Assembly: GCA_021802545.1 (NCBI GenBank)
Contig: JAJZRS010000001.1
Location: 156,822-220,821 of the forward strand
Direction: 5' to 3'
Source of the DNA: Pseudomonadota bacterium
GTDB lineage: Bacteria; Pseudomonadota; Gammaproteobacteria; Burkholderiales; JABEVD01
DNA length: 64,000 nucleotides
Shown here: piece after piece, positions 17,894 through 51,340 of the stretch
Numbering within the stretch: position 1 is the first letter of the stretch
Layout: the number at the start of each line of letters is the position of its first letter
Notes under the pieces: model-generated
Database searches by the model: none
Told to the model about the DNA's origin: nothing
What the model saw: only the letters and a program-made list of their open reading frames with translations
Translations under genes and position numbers: made by a program

Positions 17894-18021
17894 CATTTCA
17901 GAGGCTGTGCACAAAAAATTCGATTGCAGGTCACGGAAAGAAGTTCACTTTGTATTTTCTCCGGACACGAACGCAGCGAAGAACCGAGCTAGAATTGAAA
18001 GAAAAAACCATGGAGATCCTC

Positions 18022-20967
18022 ATGTCCATCAGATGGGCCAGGAAACTGATTCTTTCGCTCGTCGGGCTGTTCGTTCTCTATGCGCTTATCGGCTGGCTGG
18101 CCGTTCCGAGAATCCTGCAATCCAAGGCAGTGCAATATGTTTCGGAAAAGACGGGCTGTCGCCTTGCCCTCGGTTTGCCCAAATTCAATCCCTTCACGTT
18201 CGACATAGACATTCCGAATGTCAGGCTGGAAGATCCGGAAGGAAGACAACTCGTGGCCATCGCCGAGCTGGATGCGAATATCTCCATTCTGAGCCGCGGC
18301 CTGGCTTTCGATTCCGTCAGGCTGGAGAAGCCCCAGGCAGACATCGTGCTGGGGAAAAACGGGAAATCGAACTGGTCGGCATTTCTGGAAAAGATATCCG
18401 GAGGAGAAGATCATTCCGGTTCGCCGCCCCGCCTTTATTTGGCGCGTTTCGATCTCGAGGGTGGAAGGATCGATTTCAAAGATGAAAGGAAAGGCTTTCA
18501 CGAGAGGATCGAACCCGTCGAGCTGAGCCTGAAAGACGTTTCGACATGGCCGGGCGAATCGGGAAGCTTCATGCTCTCGGCCAGAACGGATTCGGGGATC
18601 AGCCTCTCCTGGCAGGGCAGGACCGATCTTTCGAAAGCATCTGGGAAGCTGGCACTGGACAATCTCGATTCCAGGCCTCTTGCTGCCTATCTGAAGGGCG
18701 TTCCTTCATTCGAAAAGGGAAAGCTTTCGGCGGATATCCGGATCTCGTATGCCGAAGGAAAAATCGGACTGGATCTCGAAGGATTGCAGGTGAAGGCGGA
18801 ACGCATCAGATCTAAGCCTTTGCTTTTTATCGAGTCTGTCGAGGCGAAGCAGGGCAGCTTCGACCTGAACCAGGAAAAGCTTTCGTTCGCGCAGATTTCA
18901 GCCTCCAAAGGCAGGATCGGAAAGTACGTCGAAATAGATGCATTCAGGCTTGACGACATGCATGCGGACATTTCGAAAAGAAGCCTTGCCGCGGGCAAGA
19001 TGACCATCGAAAAGGGCAGCGTGAATCTGGTCAGGGATAAAAAGGGAAACCTGGATATTCCCGGTGCAATGAAGGCGCCGGCAAAATCACGCGCCTTGCC
19101 ATGGCATTATCATGTCGGCAAATTCGATCTTTCCGGATTTTCAGTGAAATTGCAGGACGAGTCCGTTTCGCCTTACGCCACCCTGAGACTGAAGCGCATT
19201 TCCCTCAAGGCGAACGGAATCAGCGATGCGCCTGCCACATCCGTACCCTTCCAGGCTTCCATGGAAAGTGCGGCAGGGGGGATGCTCGAAGCGGATGGCC
19301 GATTCATGCCTTCAGGAAAATCGGCTGACATGAATCTCAAAATAAGTGATCTGTCCTTGAGTCCTGCGCAGCCTTACCTTTCATCCTTCGCCATGCTCAC
19401 GATAGCGGGCGGGAAGCTCGGTGCATCCGGCCATGCAGCCTATGACAGCAAGGGGGCGAGATACAATGGCAGCTTTTCCATCGACGATCTTCGCCTTTTG
19501 GAGAAAAAGAAGCGCGTATTTCTCTCGTGGAAATCGCTTTCGACCCGCAGCCTGAAGGTGGATGGCTCGAAGCTGGCCATCGCAGCGCTCGATATCGATC
19601 GCCCCTATGCGAAACTCATCATAGCCAGAAACAGGTCGGTCAACCTCTCCAAGGTCCTGAAAAAGCGCGAAGCGGCCTCGGGACCGAGTTTCCCGGTCGA
19701 TATAGGCAGGATCAGGATCAGGCGTGGGGAAATGGATTATGCAGACCATTCGCTTGCCCTGCCTTTCGGAACGAGAATCCACAGGCTGCACGGTTTCGTC
19801 AACGGTATTTCGTCTTCCCCCGGATCCATCGGACAGCTCCAACTCGGAGGGCGCGTCAATACCTACGGATCGGTTCGCGCAGCGGGGCAGATCAATCTTT
19901 TCGATCCGACAGCGCTGACGGACATCAAGGTGAAATTCAGGAACATCGAGATGGCGCGCCTGACCCCGTATTCGGCAACGTTCGTCGGCAGGAAAATCAC
20001 TTCCGGCAAGCTTTCGCTCGATCTCGACTACAAGATAAAGAATCGGCAACTGACCGGCGACAATCAGATCATCATGGACAATCTGACCCTGGGTGAACGC
20101 GTGAAAAGCAGGGAGGCCAAGGATCTGCCTCTCGATCTCGCCATTGCCGTTCTGCAGGACCAGGATGGGCGCATCGACCTCGGGCTGCCCGTATCCGGCA
20201 GCCTGGACAATCCGCAGTTCAGCTACGGCGGCATCATCTGGGAAGCGGTTCTCAAGGTTCTCGGAAAGATCGTGACCTCTCCATTCAGAATGCTCTCCGC
20301 CCTTTTTGGAGGGAAGGAGGAAAGGCTCGCCAATATAGCGTTCGATCCGGGGCGCTCAGCACTTCCGCCGCCGGAACAGGAAAAGATTGCAGATCTGGCC
20401 GGTGCGTTAAAGAAGCGTCCCAGGCTCTTCCTGACGGTGCGAGGGGTCTACTCTGATTCAGACCGGGTTGCGCTGCAGGATCTGCAGGCACGCAGGGCTG
20501 TTGCCGCTGCATCGGGGCAGGATGCCGCACAGCCCGGCCCGCTCGCCTTGAATTTTCCGGGAACAAGGGAAACCATCGAAGCGCTGTTTTCGAAAAAATT
20601 CGGTTCCGCCGAACTCGATGCGATGAAGGCTGGATTCCGCAAGGCCAACCCTGGAAAGATGAAGGCACGATTGACCGAGCGCATAACTGGTTTTTTCAGG
20701 AAGAAGCGTGCGCTTGACGAGAAGGAAATGGAGGCATTCAGGGGGGCGGATTTTCATGCCGTGCTCTACAGACGCCTGCGCGATGCAGAAATTGTTCCGG
20801 AATCGGAGCTGATTGCGCTTGGCGATGCGCGCGGAAGGAAAATCTATTCCGCCCTGAGCGCTTCAGGTGCTCCAATTGACCGGATCAGACTCGCCTCTCC
20901 CGTGCATGTCGAGGGCATGGAAGATGTCGTGCCGGCCAAGCTCGAACTGGCTCCCGCCGTGAAATAG
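18022..20967 (+). CDS. DUF748 / AsmA-like envelope protein
   Basis: A 981-aa protein anchored by one N-terminal span (KLILSLVGLFVLYALIGWLA). The rest is predicted beta-rich, with AsmA-like N-terminal VRLEDPEGRQLVAIAELDANIS and the C-terminal DUF748 block around TPYSATFVGRKITSGKLSLDLDYKI and DLPLDLAIAVLQDQDGRIDLGLPVSG. AsmA-like proteins form long grooves thought to move phospholipids between membranes; a direct role here is inference. The ATG at 18022 is favoured by GGAGA at 18012-18016; an in-frame ATG at 18010 is only 15 bases after a TAGAAT (17990-17995) that may be the -10. Confidence 0.85.
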   Translation: MSIRWARKLILSLVGLFVLYALIGWLAVPRILQSKAVQYVSEKTGCRLALGLPKFNPFTFDIDIPNVRLEDPEGRQLVAIAELDANISILSRGLAFDSVRLEKPQADIVLGKNGKSNWSAFLEKISGGEDHSGSPPRLYLARFDLEGGRIDFKDERKGFHERIEPVELSLKDVSTWPGESGSFMLSARTDSGISLSWQGRTDLSKASGKLALDNLDSRPLAAYLKGVPSFEKGKLSADIRISYAEGKIGLDLEGLQVKAERIRSKPLLFIESVEAKQGSFDLNQEKLSFAQISASKGRIGKYVEIDAFRLDDMHADISKRSLAAGKMTIEKGSVNLVRDKKGNLDIPGAMKAPAKSRALPWHYHVGKFDLSGFSVKLQDESVSPYATLRLKRISLKANGISDAPATSVPFQASMESAAGGMLEADGRFMPSGKSADMNLKISDLSLSPAQPYLSSFAMLTIAGGKLGASGHAAYDSKGARYNGSFSIDDLRLLEKKKRVFLSWKSLSTRSLKVDGSKLAIAALDIDRPYAKLIIARNRSVNLSKVLKKREAASGPSFPVDIGRIRIRRGEMDYADHSLALPFGTRIHRLHGFVNGISSSPGSIGQLQLGGRVNTYGSVRAAGQINLFDPTALTDIKVKFRNIEMARLTPYSATFVGRKITSGKLSLDLDYKIKNRQLTGDNQIIMDNLTLGERVKSREAKDLPLDLAIAVLQDQDGRIDLGLPVSGSLDNPQFSYGGIIWEAVLKVLGKIVTSPFRMLSALFGGKEERLANIAFDPGRSALPPPEQEKIADLAGALKKRPRLFLTVRGVYSDSDRVALQDLQARRAVAAASGQDAAQPGPLALNFPGTRETIEALFSKKFGSAELDAMKAGFRKANPGKMKARLTERITGFFRKKRALDEKEMEAFRGADFHAVLYRRLRDAEIVPESELIALGDARGRKIYSALSASGAPIDRIRLASPVHVEGMEDVVPAKLELAPAVK

Positions 20968-20977
20968 CGAGTATTAC

Positions 20978-20992
20978 GCACCGCGATGGTGC
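20978..20992 (+). promoter_or_regulatory. NtrC-type enhancer site
   Basis: An inverted repeat GCACC-N5-GGTGC fits the GCAC-N7-GTGC core of NtrC binding sites. Its centre (20985) is about 107 bases upstream of the start expected from the sigma-54 promoter at 21066-21081, a usual enhancer distance. No T-run follows, which argues against a terminator of the DUF748 gene, though that reading is not excluded. Confidence 0.6.
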
Positions 20993-21065
20993 TTCAATGT
21001 GCAAACAGCATGCAAGAATGAAGTGCGCCGATTTATGGCTGTTTATGATTCAATGGGTTGTGTTT

Positions 21066-21081
21066 TGGCACGGCTGTTGCT
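21066..21081 (+). promoter_or_regulatory. Sigma-54 (RpoN) promoter
   Basis: TGGCACG, four bases, then TTGCT: a full match to the -24/-12 consensus TGGCACG-N4-TTGCW. The GG (21067-21068) and GC (21079-21080) doublets have the invariant spacing. Transcription would begin at about 21092, leaving a 26-base leader with GAGGG before the ATG at 21118. Confidence 0.85.
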
Positions 21082-21117
21082 TTGGAAATCCCTGTAATGT
21101 TTAATTTCGAGGGATTC

Positions 21118-23742
21118 ATGAGAAAGCGCGTACCGGAAAACCAGGCCAACGATATCGGCTATCTGTCCAAATTCATGAGCGGGCTGCACTGGGACCAGGA
21201 AAAGCTGCGCGAAATCCAGTCCGTCTACGACAATCTGACCCTGCTCGGGCAACTGCTTTGCGCGGGAACGGACATCACCGGCATGCGCACCGATTTCAAC
21301 AACCTGGCTGGCGTCCTGCTTGACCAACTGGCCCGCGAATTGCGCAAGAAGGCCGTTTTGAGCCTGAGATCGAATTCGCGCATCGCAATCGACATCCTGA
21401 TCAGGAATCTTTTCGAGCGCACGGCCGACATCGGATTCCTTGCGACCGATGCCGATATCCGCGATTTTGCGGAAGCTTACGAAAAAGATCCTTCCTGCGC
21501 GCGGGATTCGGCGAGAATCGCAGCATTGAAGGCGCGCTTCAAGGAGTACGTGAAAAAGTATTCCGTCTACCACAACATCATTCTGCTTTCACCGGAAGGA
21601 AAGATTCTCGTCCAGCTCGACGGGGAAGGATCGGGCAGGATTTCATCCGACCCGCTGGTCGAGGCTTCCTTGAATACGGACCAGCTTTATGTGGAAACTT
21701 TCAGGCAGACCGATCTGCTTCCGGGCGAAGCCTCGCCGCTCATCTATTCGTACAGGGTGATGTCCGAGGACGGCAGCCATCCTGTCGGGGTGCTCTGCCT
21801 CTGCTTCCGCTTCCAGGACGAGTGTCAGCGCATTTTCAGGAGTCTGGTCAGTGAAGACGACTGGACCGTGATCACCATACTCGACGAGGTCGGGCGCATC
21901 ATCGCCAGCAGCGACATCTACCAGTTTCCAGTCGGGGCCAAAGTGGAGCGCGCGGTCGGGGACGAATGCAAGATCGTTCGCTTTGCCGGACGCGAATACC
22001 TTGCGACGACTCATGAAACCCAGGGATACCAGGGATACAAGGGGCCCGGATGGACAGGGCATGCGCTTGCTCCCCTGAACCACGCTTTTGACATGGCGCT
22101 TGCCCACGAACTGGAACAGGTGCCCGAGAGCGTGCTCGAGGGCGTGCTGGAGACGGCGACCCTGTTTTCAAACGAACTGCGCGACATTCCCGTTCGCGCA
22201 GCCAGCATACAGAAAGAACTCAATCGTGCGGTATGGAACGGCAATGTCTGGCTTTCCAGGGACAATTACGCCCTGAACGCCTCATTTGCCAAGGTATTGC
22301 TCTGGGAAATCGGCAGCACCGGGGTGAGGACCAGGAACGTGTTCAGCCAGTCCACAACCAATCTTTACGAGACAGTGGTTTCTTCTGTGCTCTACGACTG
22401 CTCTTCGATGGCCGCGCTCGCGATGGACATCATGGACAGGAATCTTTACGAACGCGCCAACGACTGCCGCTGGTGGGCGCTTACCAGCGCATTCGGCGAA
22501 GTGCTCGCGAAAAACTCTTCGGACGGCAGGGCGCGGCTCACCGAAATACTGAAAGGCATCAACGGGCTGTATACGGTCTATTCCAATCTGCTGATATTCG
22601 ATTCTGCTGCGAGGATCATGGCCGTTTCCAATCCGGCCTACAACGACCTCGTCGGGCAGACGCTGCAGGCCGAATGGGTCAGGCAGACGCTTGGGCTGCC
22701 CGACACCCAGAGCTATTGCGTCTCTTCTTTCGAGAACAGCCATCTCTATGGGAATCACCATACCTACATCTATTCAGCTGCGATCAGGGATAAAGGGGAG
22801 TCCGTCGGCGGGGTGGCGATCGTGTTCGATTCGACGCCCCAGTTCGCTGCGATGCTTCAGGACGCGCTGCCCAGGAGAGAGGACGGCGCGATCGTCGAAG
22901 GGGCGTTTGCCGTTTTTGCAGAGCGGGACGGCCGCATCATCGCCAGCACGGACGACAAGCTTGCTTCCGGGGCGAGGCTCGAAATCGGGCGCGAATTCTT
23001 CAATCTCGGCCGCGGGGAAGGCTGCGCGAACATCATCGAATATCGCGGCCGCTATTATGCGGTAGGTTCGCGCATGTCCTCGGGATACAGGGAATACAAG
23101 AGCGCGGAGGATGGCTACAAGAACGAAGTCGTCGCGCTGGTTTTCGTGCCGCTTTCCGAACGCATTCTCAGTTCCGAAAACAGGCATTCGTTGCGCGCCA
23201 TTGCGAAGGACAACTATTCGATGCGCCGCGCAGAAGGCGAGGAGGCCGTCGAGATCGCGACCTTCTACATCGGAACGGGCTGGTACGGCATCCGTTCCGA
23301 TTGCGTGATCGAAGCCATAGACAGCGAGTTCATCACGCCGATACCGGGGATGCCGGCCTGGATCAAGGGATGCATGCTTTACCAGGAGCAGGCCATCACC
23401 ATCTTCGACCTTTCCGACTTTCTGCACGGAGCAGCTCCATCGCCTGCGAAGTCGACGCAGATCGTGGTGATCAGGATGCCGGGACAGCGTTCAAGTTTCG
23501 GCATCCTGGTGGACGAGCTCGGAGACATACCCGAGATCGCCGCATCGCGCATCGAGCCCGTGCCGTCCATGATGTTCGGTTCGGGATCCTTGACGGAAAG
23601 CCTGGTGAAGCCCCATGCGGATGACGCAGAAAAGCGCATCCTGATCATCCTTTCCGCTGACAGCATCAGGCAGCGCCTGTCCAACCTGAACGTGGTGGGC
23701 GAATCTCAGCGTGTCCTGGTGGGGGAACTCGAGACGAGGTGA
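21118..23742 (+). CDS. Tandem cache-like sensor repeats with C-terminal CheW domain
   Basis: An 874-aa protein with no obvious membrane span or signal peptide. Two homologous sensory units can be aligned: the first includes RNLFERTADIGFLATD and YHNIILLSPEGKILVQ, the second DRNLYERANDCRWWALT and YSNLLIFDSAARIMAV. Each continues into a cache-like region ending in GYQGYKGPGW or GYREYKSAEDGY. From about residue 705 a CheW domain follows (IATFYIGTGWYGIRSDCVIE, IPGMPAWIKGCMLYQ, FGILVDELGDI). CheW couples receptors to the kinase CheA. The ATG at 21118 was chosen from GAGGG and the sigma-54 start site. It overlaps convergent ackA by 37 bp. Confidence 0.85.
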   Translation: MRKRVPENQANDIGYLSKFMSGLHWDQEKLREIQSVYDNLTLLGQLLCAGTDITGMRTDFNNLAGVLLDQLARELRKKAVLSLRSNSRIAIDILIRNLFERTADIGFLATDADIRDFAEAYEKDPSCARDSARIAALKARFKEYVKKYSVYHNIILLSPEGKILVQLDGEGSGRISSDPLVEASLNTDQLYVETFRQTDLLPGEASPLIYSYRVMSEDGSHPVGVLCLCFRFQDECQRIFRSLVSEDDWTVITILDEVGRIIASSDIYQFPVGAKVERAVGDECKIVRFAGREYLATTHETQGYQGYKGPGWTGHALAPLNHAFDMALAHELEQVPESVLEGVLETATLFSNELRDIPVRAASIQKELNRAVWNGNVWLSRDNYALNASFAKVLLWEIGSTGVRTRNVFSQSTTNLYETVVSSVLYDCSSMAALAMDIMDRNLYERANDCRWWALTSAFGEVLAKNSSDGRARLTEILKGINGLYTVYSNLLIFDSAARIMAVSNPAYNDLVGQTLQAEWVRQTLGLPDTQSYCVSSFENSHLYGNHHTYIYSAAIRDKGESVGGVAIVFDSTPQFAAMLQDALPRREDGAIVEGAFAVFAERDGRIIASTDDKLASGARLEIGREFFNLGRGEGCANIIEYRGRYYAVGSRMSSGYREYKSAEDGYKNEVVALVFVPLSERILSSENRHSLRAIAKDNYSMRRAEGEEAVEIATFYIGTGWYGIRSDCVIEAIDSEFITPIPGMPAWIKGCMLYQEQAITIFDLSDFLHGAAPSPAKSTQIVVIRMPGQRSSFGILVDELGDIPEIAASRIEPVPSMMFGSGSLTESLVKPHADDAEKRILIILSADSIRQRLSNLNVVGESQRVLVGELETR

Positions 23743-24782
23743 GAGAGGCAGAGCCCGCGCATCGCGAGTTCCTCGTCGGCTTTGACAACGAGGACGGGCT
23801 TCGATCCTTCCTGTGAAATGTTTTGGAGGCAGGATCGATTGGCTGCCTGATCCAGGGCAAAGCCGAGAAAAGAGAGCGGCGTGACGATTTTTTCGCGGAT
23901 TTCGGCGGCATGCTCGCCTATGCCGCCCGAGAAGACGAGCGCATCTATGCCGCCGGCCTTGGCGGCGAAAGAACCGATCGCTCCTCTGACGGAGCGGCAG
24001 AAATAGTCGATTGCGAAAGCGGCGCCAGGCGTTTTGCTTTCGAGCAGGTCTGTCATCTCCGGGCTTTCTCCGGATAAGGCGAGCAGCCCCATTTCGTGGT
24101 AGACGGCATGCTCAAGCGCCTGCACGTCCATTCTTCTGGAGAGCTCGACCATGACGCCGGGGTCGATGTCGCCGCATCGTGTGCCCATGACGATGCCACC
24201 CGCAGGCGTATAGGCCATGGTGGTATCGACCGATTGCAGGCCTCTCATGAGGCAGAGACTCGCTCCGCTTCCCAGGTGGGCGGCGACGACATGCCCGTTC
24301 GCTGCATCTCCCAGGATCTCCGGGAGCCTGCTCGCGATGTGAGCATAATTCAGGCCGTGGAAGCCGTATCTTTCCATGCCGAATTTGTCCGGAATGGGCA
24401 GCCGTTTCGAAATTTCCGGCATATGGGCGTGGAATGCCGTGTCGAAGCAGGCTATTTGCGGTACATTGAAACGAGCGCAGAGATCTATCCCCATGAGGTT
24501 TCCCGGCAGATGGAGCGGTGCGAGCGGGATCAGGGACTCAAGCCTTTTGCGCTCTTCATCGTCGACCAGCCTTGCCGCGTCCGCGATGTTCCCGCCGTGC
24601 ACGAAGCGGTGTCCGATCAGGTCGGGACGCATTCCGTCGAGGTCGGATGCGAGTTTTTCGAATGCGGCTTCGTGGTTGGAAAGATGCGCGTACCTGAAGT
24701 CGATCCGGTTTCCTGCGGAGAAGAGGCTTGCCTTCAGGGAGGAGGAGCCGCTGTTGACCGTGAGGACGCTCAGGTCGGCCAT
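23706..24782 (-). CDS. ackA: Acetate kinase
   Basis: A 358-aa member of the acetate kinase family, shorter than the about 400 residues of E. coli AckA. Motifs: [16 protein letters not shown] at the N-terminus, HRFVHGG, the catalytic-region [21 protein letters not shown] and [14 protein letters not shown]. It makes ATP and acetate from acetyl phosphate. It overlaps xfp by 13 bp and lies downstream of it, which fits acetyl phosphate supplied by phosphoketolase. No pta is nearby. ATG at 24782 matches the family N-terminus. Confidence 0.94.
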
Positions 24783-27127
24783 GTCCAGCCATCCGCTTCT
24801 GGCAGATCGACGCCGTTTTCGTAAGCGTAGTTGCGGCACTCGATTCGCCTGTTGAGCATCCTTTCCTTGACATGCGCGCCAGCCACTTTCAACGCAGGCA
24901 CACGGTCGATCACGTCGATCACCAGGCTGAATCGGTCGATCTGGTTCTGGATGGCCAGTTCCAGCGGCGTATTGATGCTCCCTTTTTCCTTGTAGCCGCG
25001 CACATGGAAGTTCCTGTGATTGTTGCGGCGATAGGCGAGCCTGTGGATCAGCCAGGGGTAGCCGTGGAAATTGAACATGACGGGTTTGTCGACGGTGAAC
25101 AGGCTGTCGAAGTCCCGGTCGGACAGGCCGTGCGGGTGCTCGGCCTCGGGGGTGAGCTTGTAGAGGTCGACCACGTTGATGAAGCGGATCTTGAGATCGG
25201 GAAAATTCTCGCGCAGGAGCAGCGTGGCTGCAAGCGCTTCCTTCGTCGGTATGTCGCCTGCGCTCGCCATGACGACGTCGGGCTCAACCCCTTCATCATT
25301 GCTCGCCCATTCCCAGATACCGATACCCTTCGTGCAGTGCTTCATTGCTGCATCGATGTCCAGATATTGCAGGTGCTTTTGCTTGTCGCTGACGATGACG
25401 TTGATGTAGTTCACGCTCTTCAGGCAATGATCGGCCACGCACAGCAGGCAGTTTGCATCGGGCGGCAGATAGATGCGCGTCACCGCCGGGCTCTTGTTGA
25501 CGACAAGATCAAGGAAGCCTGGGTCCTGGTGAGTGAATCCGTTGTGGTCCTGCCGCCATACCGTGGACGTGATCAGGAGATTCAGCGAGGAAACGGGGAT
25601 GCGCCAAGGCACTTCATTGGTCATGGCGAGCCATTTTGCATGCTGGTTGAACATCGAATCGATGACATGGACGAAGGCTTCGTAGGTGGAAAAGAAGCCG
25701 TGGCGCCCGGTCAGCAGATAGCCTTCAAGCCAGCCTTCCAGCGTATGCTCGGAAAGCATTTCCATCACGCGCCCGTCCGGGGAAAGTTCGCCCCCGTCTG
25801 AATCTTCGGGAAGAAAATCGGCCAGCCAGGTTTTCTTGCTGACTTCGTAGATGGCGTCGAGCTTGTTCGAAGTGTTCTCGTCCGGGCCGAATACGCGGAA
25901 ATGGCCCAGGTTGTCGACCATGATGTCTCTCAGGAATCGGCCCAGCGGGCGTGTATTTTCGGCGGCATCCGACCCGGGGGAAGCCACCTTCACCGCGTAA
26001 TTCCTGAAATCGGGCAATCTGAGCGCTCTGCGCAGCAGTCCGCCGTTCGCGTGGGGGTTCGCACTCATGCGGCGTTCTCCTTTTGGTGCGAGCGCCTTCA
26101 ATTCGGGAATCAGTCTGCCATCGTCGTCGAACAGCTCATCAGGCCTGTAGCTTCTGAGCCAGGATTCGAGTTGGGCAAGATGCTCCGGATTGCCCATATT
26201 CGGGATGGGTACCTGGTGTGCGCGCCAGAATCCTTCCACCTTCCTTCTGTCCACTTCCTTGGGGCCTGTCCATCCCTTGGGGGAACGCAGCACGATCATC
26301 GGCCAGCGCGGACGGGAAGGAATGCCGGCCTCCCTCGCTTCCTTCTGGATGCGCCTGATTTCCAGCACGCAGGCCTCCATGGTTTCCGCCATCTTTTCGT
26401 GCATCTGGATCGGGTCGCTGCCTTCGACGAAATGGGGTGTCCAGCCATAGCCCTTGAAAAGATCTTCCAGTTCTTCGTGCGAGATGCGCGAAAGGATGGT
26501 GGGGTTGTTGATCTTGTAGCCGTTGAGGTGCAGGATGGGCAGGACGGCGCCGTCCCGCACCGGGTTGAGAAACTTGTTGGAATGCCATGAAGTCGCGAGC
26601 GGGGCCGTTTCGGACTCCCCGTCTCCGACCATGACCGTGACGATCAGATCGGGATTGTCGTAGGCTGCACCGAAAGCGTGGGAGACGCTGTAGCCGAGTT
26701 CTCCGCCTTCATGGATGGAACCCGGCGTCTCAGGGGTGCAGTGGCTGCCTATCCCGCCCGGGAAGGAGAATTCCTTGAAAAATTGGCGCAAGCCTTCGAC
26801 GTTTTCACCCTTGTTGGGGTAAGTTTCGCTGTACGTGCCTTCGAGATAGACGGGGCCGAGCACGCCCGGCGCACCGTGACCGGGGCCGGCCATGAAGATG
26901 GCGTTGAGATCGTACTTGTTGATCAGGCGGTTCATGTGCAGGTAGGTGAAGGCGAGCCCGGGGCTCGATCCCCAGTGGCCGAGCAGGCGCTTCTTGATGT
27001 GCTCGAGCTTGAGCGGCTCTCTGAGCAGCGGATTGTCGCGCAGGTAGATCATGCCTGCCGCCAGGTAGTTGCTCGCTCGCCAGAGTGCATCGATGTTCCT
27101 GATTTCTTCTTGGGTCAGTAAAGACAT
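24770..27127 (-). CDS. xfp: Xylulose-5-phosphate/fructose-6-phosphate phosphoketolase
   Basis: A 785-aa thiamine diphosphate enzyme of typical length. The N-terminal domain has [18 protein letters not shown] and the TPP/Mg motif [14 protein letters not shown] ending in NGYKINNPT. The central domain has [19 protein letters not shown], and the C-terminal domain has [17 protein letters not shown]. It splits Xu5P or F6P with phosphate into acetyl phosphate plus GAP or E4P without ATP use or CO2 loss. It lies 12 bp after glgP and overlaps ackA. Confidence 0.96.
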
Positions 27128-33937: not shown

Positions 33938-35142
33938 AGAGGAAACCATCATGGCAAAGAGCAAGTTTGAGCGGACGAAGCCGCATGTGAACGTAGGGAC
34001 GATTGGTCACGTTGACCATGGCAAGACGACGCTGACTGCGGCGATCACGACGATTCTGACGAAGAAGTTCGGCGGCGAAGCGAAGAGCTACGATCAGATT
34101 GATTCGGCGCCCGAAGAGCGCGCTCGCGGGATCACGATCAACACCGCGCACGTGGAATACGAGACGGAGACGCGTCACTATGCGCACGTTGACTGTCCCG
34201 GCCACGCTGACTACGTGAAGAACATGATCACGGGCGCAGCGCAGATGGACGGTGCGATTCTGGTGTGCTCGGCCGCTGACGGCCCGATGCCCCAGACGCG
34301 CGAGCACATTCTGCTGGCACGTCAGGTTGGCGTTCCTTACATCGTGGTTTACCTGAACAAGGCGGACATGGTTGACGATCCCGAGCTGTTGGAGCTGGTG
34401 GAGATGGAAGTCCGCGAACTGCTTTCGAAGTACGATTTTCCCGGCGACGACACGCCGATCGTGGTGGGTTCGGCACTGAAGGCGCTGCAGGGCGACCAGT
34501 CGGAAATCGGCGAGCCTTCGATTTTGAAGCTGGCTGCCGCATTGGACAGCTACATTCCCGAGCCGCAGCGTGCGATTGACGGGACGTTCCTGATGCCTGT
34601 TGAAGACGTGTTCTCGATTTCCGGTCGCGGCACGGTGGTGACGGGTCGCGTTGAGCGCGGCATCATCAAGGTTGGCGACGAAGTGGAGATCGTCGGGATT
34701 CGTCCGACGACGAAGACGACGTGCACGGGCGTTGAGATGTTCAGGAAGCTGCTTGACCAGGGTCAGGCAGGCGACAACGTTGGCGTGCTGCTGCGCGGCA
34801 CGAAGCGCGAGGAAGTGGAGCGCGGTCAAGTGCTGGCGAAGCCTGGTTCGATCACGCCGCACACGAAGTTCAGCGCAGAGATTTACGTGCTGTCGAAGGA
34901 CGAGGGCGGTCGTCATACGCCGTTCTTCAACGGCTACCGCCCGCAGTTCTTCTTCAGGACGACGGACGTGACGGGATCGATCGACCTGGCCGAAGGCACC
35001 GAGATGGTGATGCCTGGAGACAACGTGTCGGTGACGGTTTCCCTGATTGCGCCGGTTGCGATGGAAGAAGGTCTGCGCTTTGCGATCCGCGAAGGCGGCA
35101 GGACCGTGGGCGCCGGTGTCGTCGCCAAGATCATCCAGTAAG
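33938..35142 (+). repeat. 1205-bp direct repeat, copy 1 (tuf)
   Basis: Identical base for base to 50136-51340: 13 bases of leader including the Shine-Dalgarno, the whole tuf gene and one base after the stop. Flanks differ immediately on both sides. Confidence 0.97.
33951..35141 (+). CDS. tuf: Elongation factor Tu (copy 1)
   Basis: A 396-aa GTPase that delivers aminoacyl-tRNA to the ribosome. P-loop GHVDHGKTT, switch region [31 protein letters not shown] and the G5 motif SALKAL, then domains 2 and 3 ([18 protein letters not shown]). Shine-Dalgarno AGAGGAAA precedes the ATG. It sits between tRNA-Thr and tRNA-Trp. Threonine is coded mostly by ACG here, unlike neighbouring translation genes that favour ACC. 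Confidence 0.99.
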
Positions 35143-50135: not shown

Positions 50136-51340
50136 AGAGGAAACCATCATGGCAAAGAGCAAGTTTGAGCGGACGAAGCCGCATGTGAACGTAGGGACGA
50201 TTGGTCACGTTGACCATGGCAAGACGACGCTGACTGCGGCGATCACGACGATTCTGACGAAGAAGTTCGGCGGCGAAGCGAAGAGCTACGATCAGATTGA
50301 TTCGGCGCCCGAAGAGCGCGCTCGCGGGATCACGATCAACACCGCGCACGTGGAATACGAGACGGAGACGCGTCACTATGCGCACGTTGACTGTCCCGGC
50401 CACGCTGACTACGTGAAGAACATGATCACGGGCGCAGCGCAGATGGACGGTGCGATTCTGGTGTGCTCGGCCGCTGACGGCCCGATGCCCCAGACGCGCG
50501 AGCACATTCTGCTGGCACGTCAGGTTGGCGTTCCTTACATCGTGGTTTACCTGAACAAGGCGGACATGGTTGACGATCCCGAGCTGTTGGAGCTGGTGGA
50601 GATGGAAGTCCGCGAACTGCTTTCGAAGTACGATTTTCCCGGCGACGACACGCCGATCGTGGTGGGTTCGGCACTGAAGGCGCTGCAGGGCGACCAGTCG
50701 GAAATCGGCGAGCCTTCGATTTTGAAGCTGGCTGCCGCATTGGACAGCTACATTCCCGAGCCGCAGCGTGCGATTGACGGGACGTTCCTGATGCCTGTTG
50801 AAGACGTGTTCTCGATTTCCGGTCGCGGCACGGTGGTGACGGGTCGCGTTGAGCGCGGCATCATCAAGGTTGGCGACGAAGTGGAGATCGTCGGGATTCG
50901 TCCGACGACGAAGACGACGTGCACGGGCGTTGAGATGTTCAGGAAGCTGCTTGACCAGGGTCAGGCAGGCGACAACGTTGGCGTGCTGCTGCGCGGCACG
51001 AAGCGCGAGGAAGTGGAGCGCGGTCAAGTGCTGGCGAAGCCTGGTTCGATCACGCCGCACACGAAGTTCAGCGCAGAGATTTACGTGCTGTCGAAGGACG
51101 AGGGCGGTCGTCATACGCCGTTCTTCAACGGCTACCGCCCGCAGTTCTTCTTCAGGACGACGGACGTGACGGGATCGATCGACCTGGCCGAAGGCACCGA
51201 GATGGTGATGCCTGGAGACAACGTGTCGGTGACGGTTTCCCTGATTGCGCCGGTTGCGATGGAAGAAGGTCTGCGCTTTGCGATCCGCGAAGGCGGCAGG
51301 ACCGTGGGCGCCGGTGTCGTCGCCAAGATCATCCAGTAAG
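50136..51340 (+). repeat. 1205-bp direct repeat, copy 2 (tuf)
   Basis: Base-for-base copy of 33938-35142, same orientation, 16,198 bp apart. Recombination between the copies could delete or duplicate the rpoBC segment; identity points to gene conversion. Confidence 0.97.
50149..51339 (+). CDS. tuf: Elongation factor Tu (copy 2)
   Basis: A 396-aa protein identical to the copy at 33951. This is the tufA position of the str operon (rpsL-rpsG-fusA-tuf). It shares the Shine-Dalgarno AGAGGAAA and ends 10 bases before rpsJ, so the str and S10 operons may be read as one unit. Confidence 0.99.

Follow-up and report, generated by a model that had tools for sequence, protein, structure and literature searches.

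NtrC-dependent σ54 promoters are known from glnAp2 and from the nac and glnK–amtB type. At promoters of this class, low nitrogen leads via uridylylated PII and NtrB to phosphorylated NtrC (NtrC-P), which binds an upstream dyad and reaches the σ54 RNA polymerase by looping. On the chemosensory side, CheV is a coupling protein in which CheW is joined to a REC domain. The effect of nutrient hunger on the steering of cells has been studied mostly via receptors and metabolism.

Several reports connect nitrogen regulation with motility or chemotaxis. In the betaproteobacterium Burkholderia cenocepacia H111, loss of ntrC impairs both swimming and swarming, and NtrC raises the expression of motAB, flagellar genes, cheR, and genes of EAL-domain proteins (PMC5491218). 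For Azospirillum brasilense, CheA1/CheA4 chemotaxis is described as coupled to the functions of RpoN, NtrC, and NifA (PMC8561660). In Pseudomonas stutzeri A1501, the chemotactic transducers PST0874 and PST2508 are inducible on nitrogen fixation (PMC2820453), and an acid mine drainage nif cluster has been reported to contain chemotaxis genes (PMC3912193). A double-dCache CheW family or an NtrC-driven CheW gene is the subject of no paper among the matches listed in the open-access literature (titles and abstract starts).

The locus compared here belongs to the 2.77 Mb genome GCA_021802545.1 (the host genome) and lies in a 64-kb window of contig JAJZRS010000001.1; this window is the whole stretch of DNA that was analyzed, and positions refer to it unless another locus is named. 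Here, an NtrC-activated σ54 promoter of the glnA type probably drives a gene that stands alone and encodes a cytoplasmic chemotaxis protein of the coupling type with 874 aa (21118..23742, + strand). Its neighbors—a DUF748/AsmA-like gene upstream (18010..20967, +) and convergent acetate kinase and phosphoketolase genes downstream (23706..27127, −)—are outside the system. The original prediction had also pointed to a PII gene as relevant context; this gene is real by Pfam but 21 kb away and, hence, no evidence.

The −24/−12 promoter TGGCACGGCTGTTGCT (21066..21081, +) matches the σ54 consensus exactly and is conserved in many, but not all, orthologues. TGGCACG (21066–21072) and TTGCT (21077–21081) enclose a GCTG spacer, and the GG-N10-GC spacing is exact, which confirms the full match with invariant GG/GC spacing that had been claimed for this site. 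Further upstream, the NtrC-type enhancer dyad CGCACC-GCGAT-GGTGCT (20977..20993, +), assigned from its sequence and from orthologues, is near-consensus, with 10 of 12 positions agreeing with TGCACC-N5-GGTGCA. Its core GCACCGCGATGGTGC (GCACC-GCGAT-GGTGC, 20978–20992), likewise correctly recognized by the original prediction as NtrC-like, is perfect in the inner 5+5 positions. The window holds one exact σ54 element and one exact dyad, which are the two described here. From dyad start to σ54 element, the distance is 89 bp; a dyad about 60–150 bp before the promoter is what we take to define an NtrC-activated promoter.

From this geometry, transcription is expected to start at about 21091..21092 (+), which is about 11–12 nt past the −12 GC and 26–27 nt before the ATG, with a probable ribosome-binding site GAGGG (21109..21113, +) in between. 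ATG 21118 as start codon is backed by near orthologues sharing the N-terminal MRKR. A longer frame from TTG 21058 would start upstream of the promoter. No σ70-like promoter was seen in 20900–21200, and a terminator-like match at 21056–21075 was set aside for its overlap with the σ54 promoter.

Some match to the protein is present in 39 of the 60 searched genomes, mostly to the CheW domain alone. Strong family members—defined by an E value of at most 1e-100—occur in 13 of the 60: the host, 6 of the 8 further genomes in the genus, and 6 of the 51 that belong to other genera; the orthologue is absent from 2 of these 8. All six other same-genus genomes with an orthologue show recognizable forms of both elements, one of the six being cut by a contig end. 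Within this group, L030 has both dyad and promoter perfect, L028 a perfect dyad and two promoter mismatches, and L029 a perfect dyad and GT in place of GC at −12, while L025–L027 bear one promoter mismatch and mismatches at 2–3 of the 12 dyad positions. When the seven upstream regions are aligned, the dyad, the −24/−12 element, and the start codon stand out as the longest stretches without variation, next to a shorter TTC block.

A scan of named genomes extended this comparison to 80 loci of at least 574 confirmed. In an 87-row tree of the relatives among the matches listed, calculated by a quick method, the 874-aa protein falls into a 24-row clade with an SH-aLRT of 100; dropping the L029 duplicate and L076 (66 bases upstream) and adding L030 gives a clade set of 23. 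By a strict rule, both elements are found in 13 of these 23 clade members (among the matches listed) compared with 0 of 2300 shuffled regions and 6 of 743 other genes of the same loci, three of the six being one Zoogloea gene with two dyads. As far as sequences can tell, the promoter is hence evolutionarily constrained. Self-trained gene calls yield 11 of 21 clade members versus 7 of 914 background genes (Fisher p 9e-16, which ignores the kinship of rows); since the rows are related, p values of this kind are too small. Going by record names, the clade members with both elements under this rule include Azonexus R2A61, Azoarcus, Thiobacillus, and Methylophilaceae. The strict rule fails in ten members (L077, L080, L081, L084, L085, L086, L088, L089, L095, and L127), with Azonexus GS18, Propionivibrio, Sideroxydans, Acidithiobacillus, Serpentinimonas, and two methanotroph records on this side, and inspection by eye gave no convincing −24/−12 element for L077, L080, and L127. 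The original prediction, which had staked itself on orthologues carrying this element, thereby came through largely but not entirely. The Zoogloea gene (L105:10320, L107:14648, and L133:16106), by eye encoding transport binding proteins, bears a one-mismatch σ54 site along with its two dyads upstream and may be a real NtrC target in its own right.

A single element says less. Degenerate σ54 matches occur at control frequency: with up to three mismatches, the window holds 50 sites versus 64 expected, and with up to two mismatches, the genome holds 168+161=329 sites versus 167+172=339 in the backwards-read control, thus no excess. As these matches are no commoner than expected, the degenerate pattern alone is uninformative, and it is from here that the reading as a chance match without function takes its argument. 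Set against the joint presence of both elements in the clade, which shuffled regions and neighboring genes do not approach, such a coincidence is very improbable.

In the host genome, the exact pattern TGGCACGN4TTGCW occurs ten times. Eight of these sites precede a predicted gene on the same strand by no more than about 130 bp; one of the remaining two is inside an ntrB-like gene and the other is without a suitable gene. The dyad is found above chance, with 118 sites of 0–1 mismatch versus 31 in the control, eight sites being exact. The seven exact dyads beside the one described here are near amtB, Gcw_chp, nasT-like, nrtA-like, PP2C/kinase, AAA ATPase, and GGDEF/EAL genes, and glnA—with ntrBC beyond—has a dyad with one mismatch; the names nasT, nrtA, and ntrB are presumed by us from Pfam domains and gene context. 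Dyad start and σ54 site are 109 bp apart for glnA, 100 bp for the nasT-like, 90 bp for the nrtA-like, and 67 bp for the PP2C/kinase gene, compared with the 89 bp of the 874-aa gene. By the core rule, no σ54 site was found at the amtB or the Gcw_chp gene.

Some dyads of the host deserve mention on their own. A perfect one lies between the Gcw_chp gene and a divergent ATPase gene (contig C29, L063:3097-4087). Another, with perfect inner 5+5 positions, precedes the predicted start of a PAS-GGDEF-EAL gene by about 76 bp (contig C42, L065:1896-4126), where the core rule gives no σ54 site. Within the window, a one-mismatch dyad match is repeated because of a gene pair of identical translation (33951–35141 and 50149–51339), assigned by eye to elongation factor Tu, in what is an ordinary arrangement.

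The regulators are encoded as well. One NtrC of the host genome scores above the curated cut-off, its gene adjoining a histidine kinase gene and glnA, and there is one σ54 gene; NtrC and σ54 are both encoded in 9 of 9 relatives searched. The σ54 promoter might still be driven by another enhancer-binding protein—NifA or an NtrC-like one—with the dyad being incidental. The host genome offers 47 NtrC-model matches in total, many of them to the receiver domain only, and the distant family members L116 and L147 carry TGT-N10-ACA sites instead. We regard such control as quite unlikely, as the dyad is conserved together with the promoter and the same dyad stands before amtB, glnA, nasT-like, and nrtA-like genes. 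For NifA in particular, the 500 bp that precede the 874-aa gene contain no TGT-N10-ACA (NifA-type) element, which speaks against its control of this gene. Taken together, the sequence evidence leaves the NtrC-activated promoter well supported.

The protein itself consists of N-terminal helices, a dCache 1 (about residues 54–319), a dCache 2 (about 388–682), and a CheW domain (713–850). CheW (PF01584) is found by Pfam with 65.2 bits at a cut-off of 23.5, and dCache_1 with 44.7 bits just below its cut-off of 45; in the aligned family members among the matches listed, CheW is present in 48 of 48 and dCache_1 with E≤0.001 in 46 of 48. The two dCache modules are diverged repeats of each other (26% identity, E 2e-11). 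An AlphaFold2 model with a mean pLDDT of 83.8 agrees with these assignments: its CheW part matches CheW structures and has the CheW fold, and residues about 414–682 superpose with Z 17–20 on the dCache of DctB and amino-acid chemoreceptors. The dCache amino-acid motif showed no clear match and was not used as evidence. No membrane helix is predicted for the 874-aa protein, whose 19-residue hydropathy maximum is 1.31; this absence is claimed for this protein only, because 16 of 88 family rows (among the matches listed) have a stretch of at least 1.6. REC, HAMP, and MCP signaling domains gave no Pfam match at E up to 1. The earlier label of a CheW-type sensor or coupling protein is, thus, right in its CheW domain and too narrow otherwise, since the protein adds a soluble double-dCache module to CheW and is more than a plain coupling protein. 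The family is described by Pfam as Cache plus CheW and nothing further, and NCBIfam has no match above cut-off for it; the reading given here would offer a function for it.

From the two elements and their conservation, the NtrC, σ54, and CheA genes, and the domain make-up, we infer the following course for nitrogen induction, docking, ligand, and behavioral effect. Under nitrogen limitation, NtrB would phosphorylate NtrC, and NtrC-P would bind the dyad at 20977–20993 and loop to the σ54 RNA polymerase at 21066–21081, so that transcription would start near 21092. Sequence and conservation of the promoter point to this induction, and the domains suggest a chemotaxis output. The two dCache modules would form the sensory part, sensing a cytoplasmic compound, and CheW the output. 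Most likely, CheW lets the protein dock into CheA/receptor arrays, in the way known for CheV and its REC domain, and the cytoplasmic signal might then bias motility while nitrogen is short. An array component under NtrC control would directly link nitrogen status to array composition.

All 13 genomes that have a strong family member encode a CheA-type kinase, compared with 32 of the remaining 47. Gene neighbors of the family differ between sublineages, and no conserved operon partner was found across the loci, the only recurrent neighbors being GGDEF/EAL genes. These neighbors are the reason to keep a different output as a rival: the promoter would be real and nitrogen-controlled but act on pilus twitching or c-di-GMP rather than on chemotaxis proper. 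Among the matches listed, 10 GGDEF and 9 EAL genes occur among the 84 genes within two genes of 22 clade loci, compared with 0 and 1 among 205 at 58 other loci. In genome G042, which has a distant family member, the sole CheA-like match is one of 2098 aa, and NtrC of B. cenocepacia controls genes of EAL-domain proteins (PMC5491218). On the other side, 5 of the 9 EAL loci in the clade come from one genus, and genes farther away in the clade loci match too (8 EAL and 11 GGDEF of 188), again among the matches listed. Moreover, an MCP-type receptor gene precedes the orthologue by two genes in L074, L075, and L090, and the open frames that hold the two CheA-type matches of the host genome measure 649 and 632 aa, well short of the 2000-aa kind. 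An output other than chemotaxis is, on this balance, unlikely, and we prefer the reading as a coupling-type chemotaxis protein. In L074:2021-6617, and likewise in L075 and L090, the MCP-type receptor and a GGDEF-EAL gene stand before the orthologue, with PAS and HAMP found by Pfam in L074 only. In Acidithiobacillus sulfuriphilus (L080:6014-7447), an ammonium transporter gene is positioned three genes past the orthologue on the opposite strand.

A second copy of the gene is found in the nif region of the host. Contigs C12 and C18 (L054:73-6309 and L056:3-3075) carry nifH, nifD, nifK, a Fer2 ferredoxin gene, a small gene, the paralogue, draG, draT, nifE, and nifN; NifH, ADP-ribosyl glycohydrolase (DraG), and DRAT are database matches, nifD, K, E, and N were named by eye, and the second small gene after nifHDK has no Pfam match. 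The nifH operon bears an exact σ54 site and a TGT-N10-ACA element upstream. The paralogue, which is 52% and 47% identical to the 874-aa protein in its two parts, sits with these parts at two contig ends. A mobile repeat—or, alternatively, an assembly fault—seems to interrupt it, because the tail after its first part has three occurrences in the genome, one of them at 91% identity.

Similar neighborhoods are found elsewhere in the family: a nif structural or biosynthesis gene, draG, draT, or a ferredoxin gene is in the flank of 10 of 80 loci (among the matches listed), a count that leaves out L085 and L149, whose NifA match only may be another activator. Of the 60 genomes, nifH above its cut-off is found in 13 and a strong family member likewise in 13, with an overlap of 9 (p 2.6e-5); beyond the host genus, 3 of 6 family carriers co-occur with nifH (p 0.017). 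For loci outside the clade, among the matches listed, a σ54-like site is present in 13 of 57 compared with 41 of 914 in the background (p 4e-6), three of these 13 having a dyad in addition and two a TGT-N10-ACA element. As 2 of 57 is no more than the background of 17 of 914 (p 0.31), NifA control as a rule of the family is not supported. It is conceivable, though we hold this only tentatively, that the widespread double-dCache CheW family represents a dedicated nitrogen-status chemotaxis arm, with one branch switched on by NtrC under nitrogen limitation and another housed in nif clusters, close to ferredoxin and draTG genes. If so, cells seeking or fixing nitrogen would equip their arrays with a metabolic sensor.

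Compared with glnA-type NtrC promoters, the promoter of the 874-aa gene shares the −24/−12 element and the upstream dyad, and its spacing resembles that of the host glnA, nasT-like, and nrtA-like genes; the usual targets of such promoters are nitrogen uptake and assimilation, whereas here the target would be a chemosensory adaptor. CheV appears to be the nearest functional model, as it shares a CheW fused to a regulatory module. The 874-aa protein has two dCache modules in place of this module and is not a CheV, because no REC domain was found. To the dCache chemoreceptors PctA/B/C, Tlp1, and Mlp24 and to DctB-type kinases it is tied by the superposition of dCache 2, and it differs from the receptors in having no predicted membrane helix and no HAMP or MCP signaling match, although transmembrane segments are not present in every chemoreceptor. 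In Azospirillum brasilense, it is CheA mutants that alter nitrogen regulators (PMC8561660), whereas the present prediction places an array component under NtrC. Pseudomonas stutzeri A1501 likewise ties chemosensory genes to nitrogen; PST0874 and PST2508 are annotated as transducers, and the likeness is one of description (PMC2820453). B. cenocepacia H111 shows NtrC control of motility, with cheR and flagellar genes found by RNA-seq, and the main text of that report does not use the word CheW (PMC5491218). As both the kind of promoter and the control of motility by NtrC are already known, the new part of this system is the NtrC target and the architecture of its protein.
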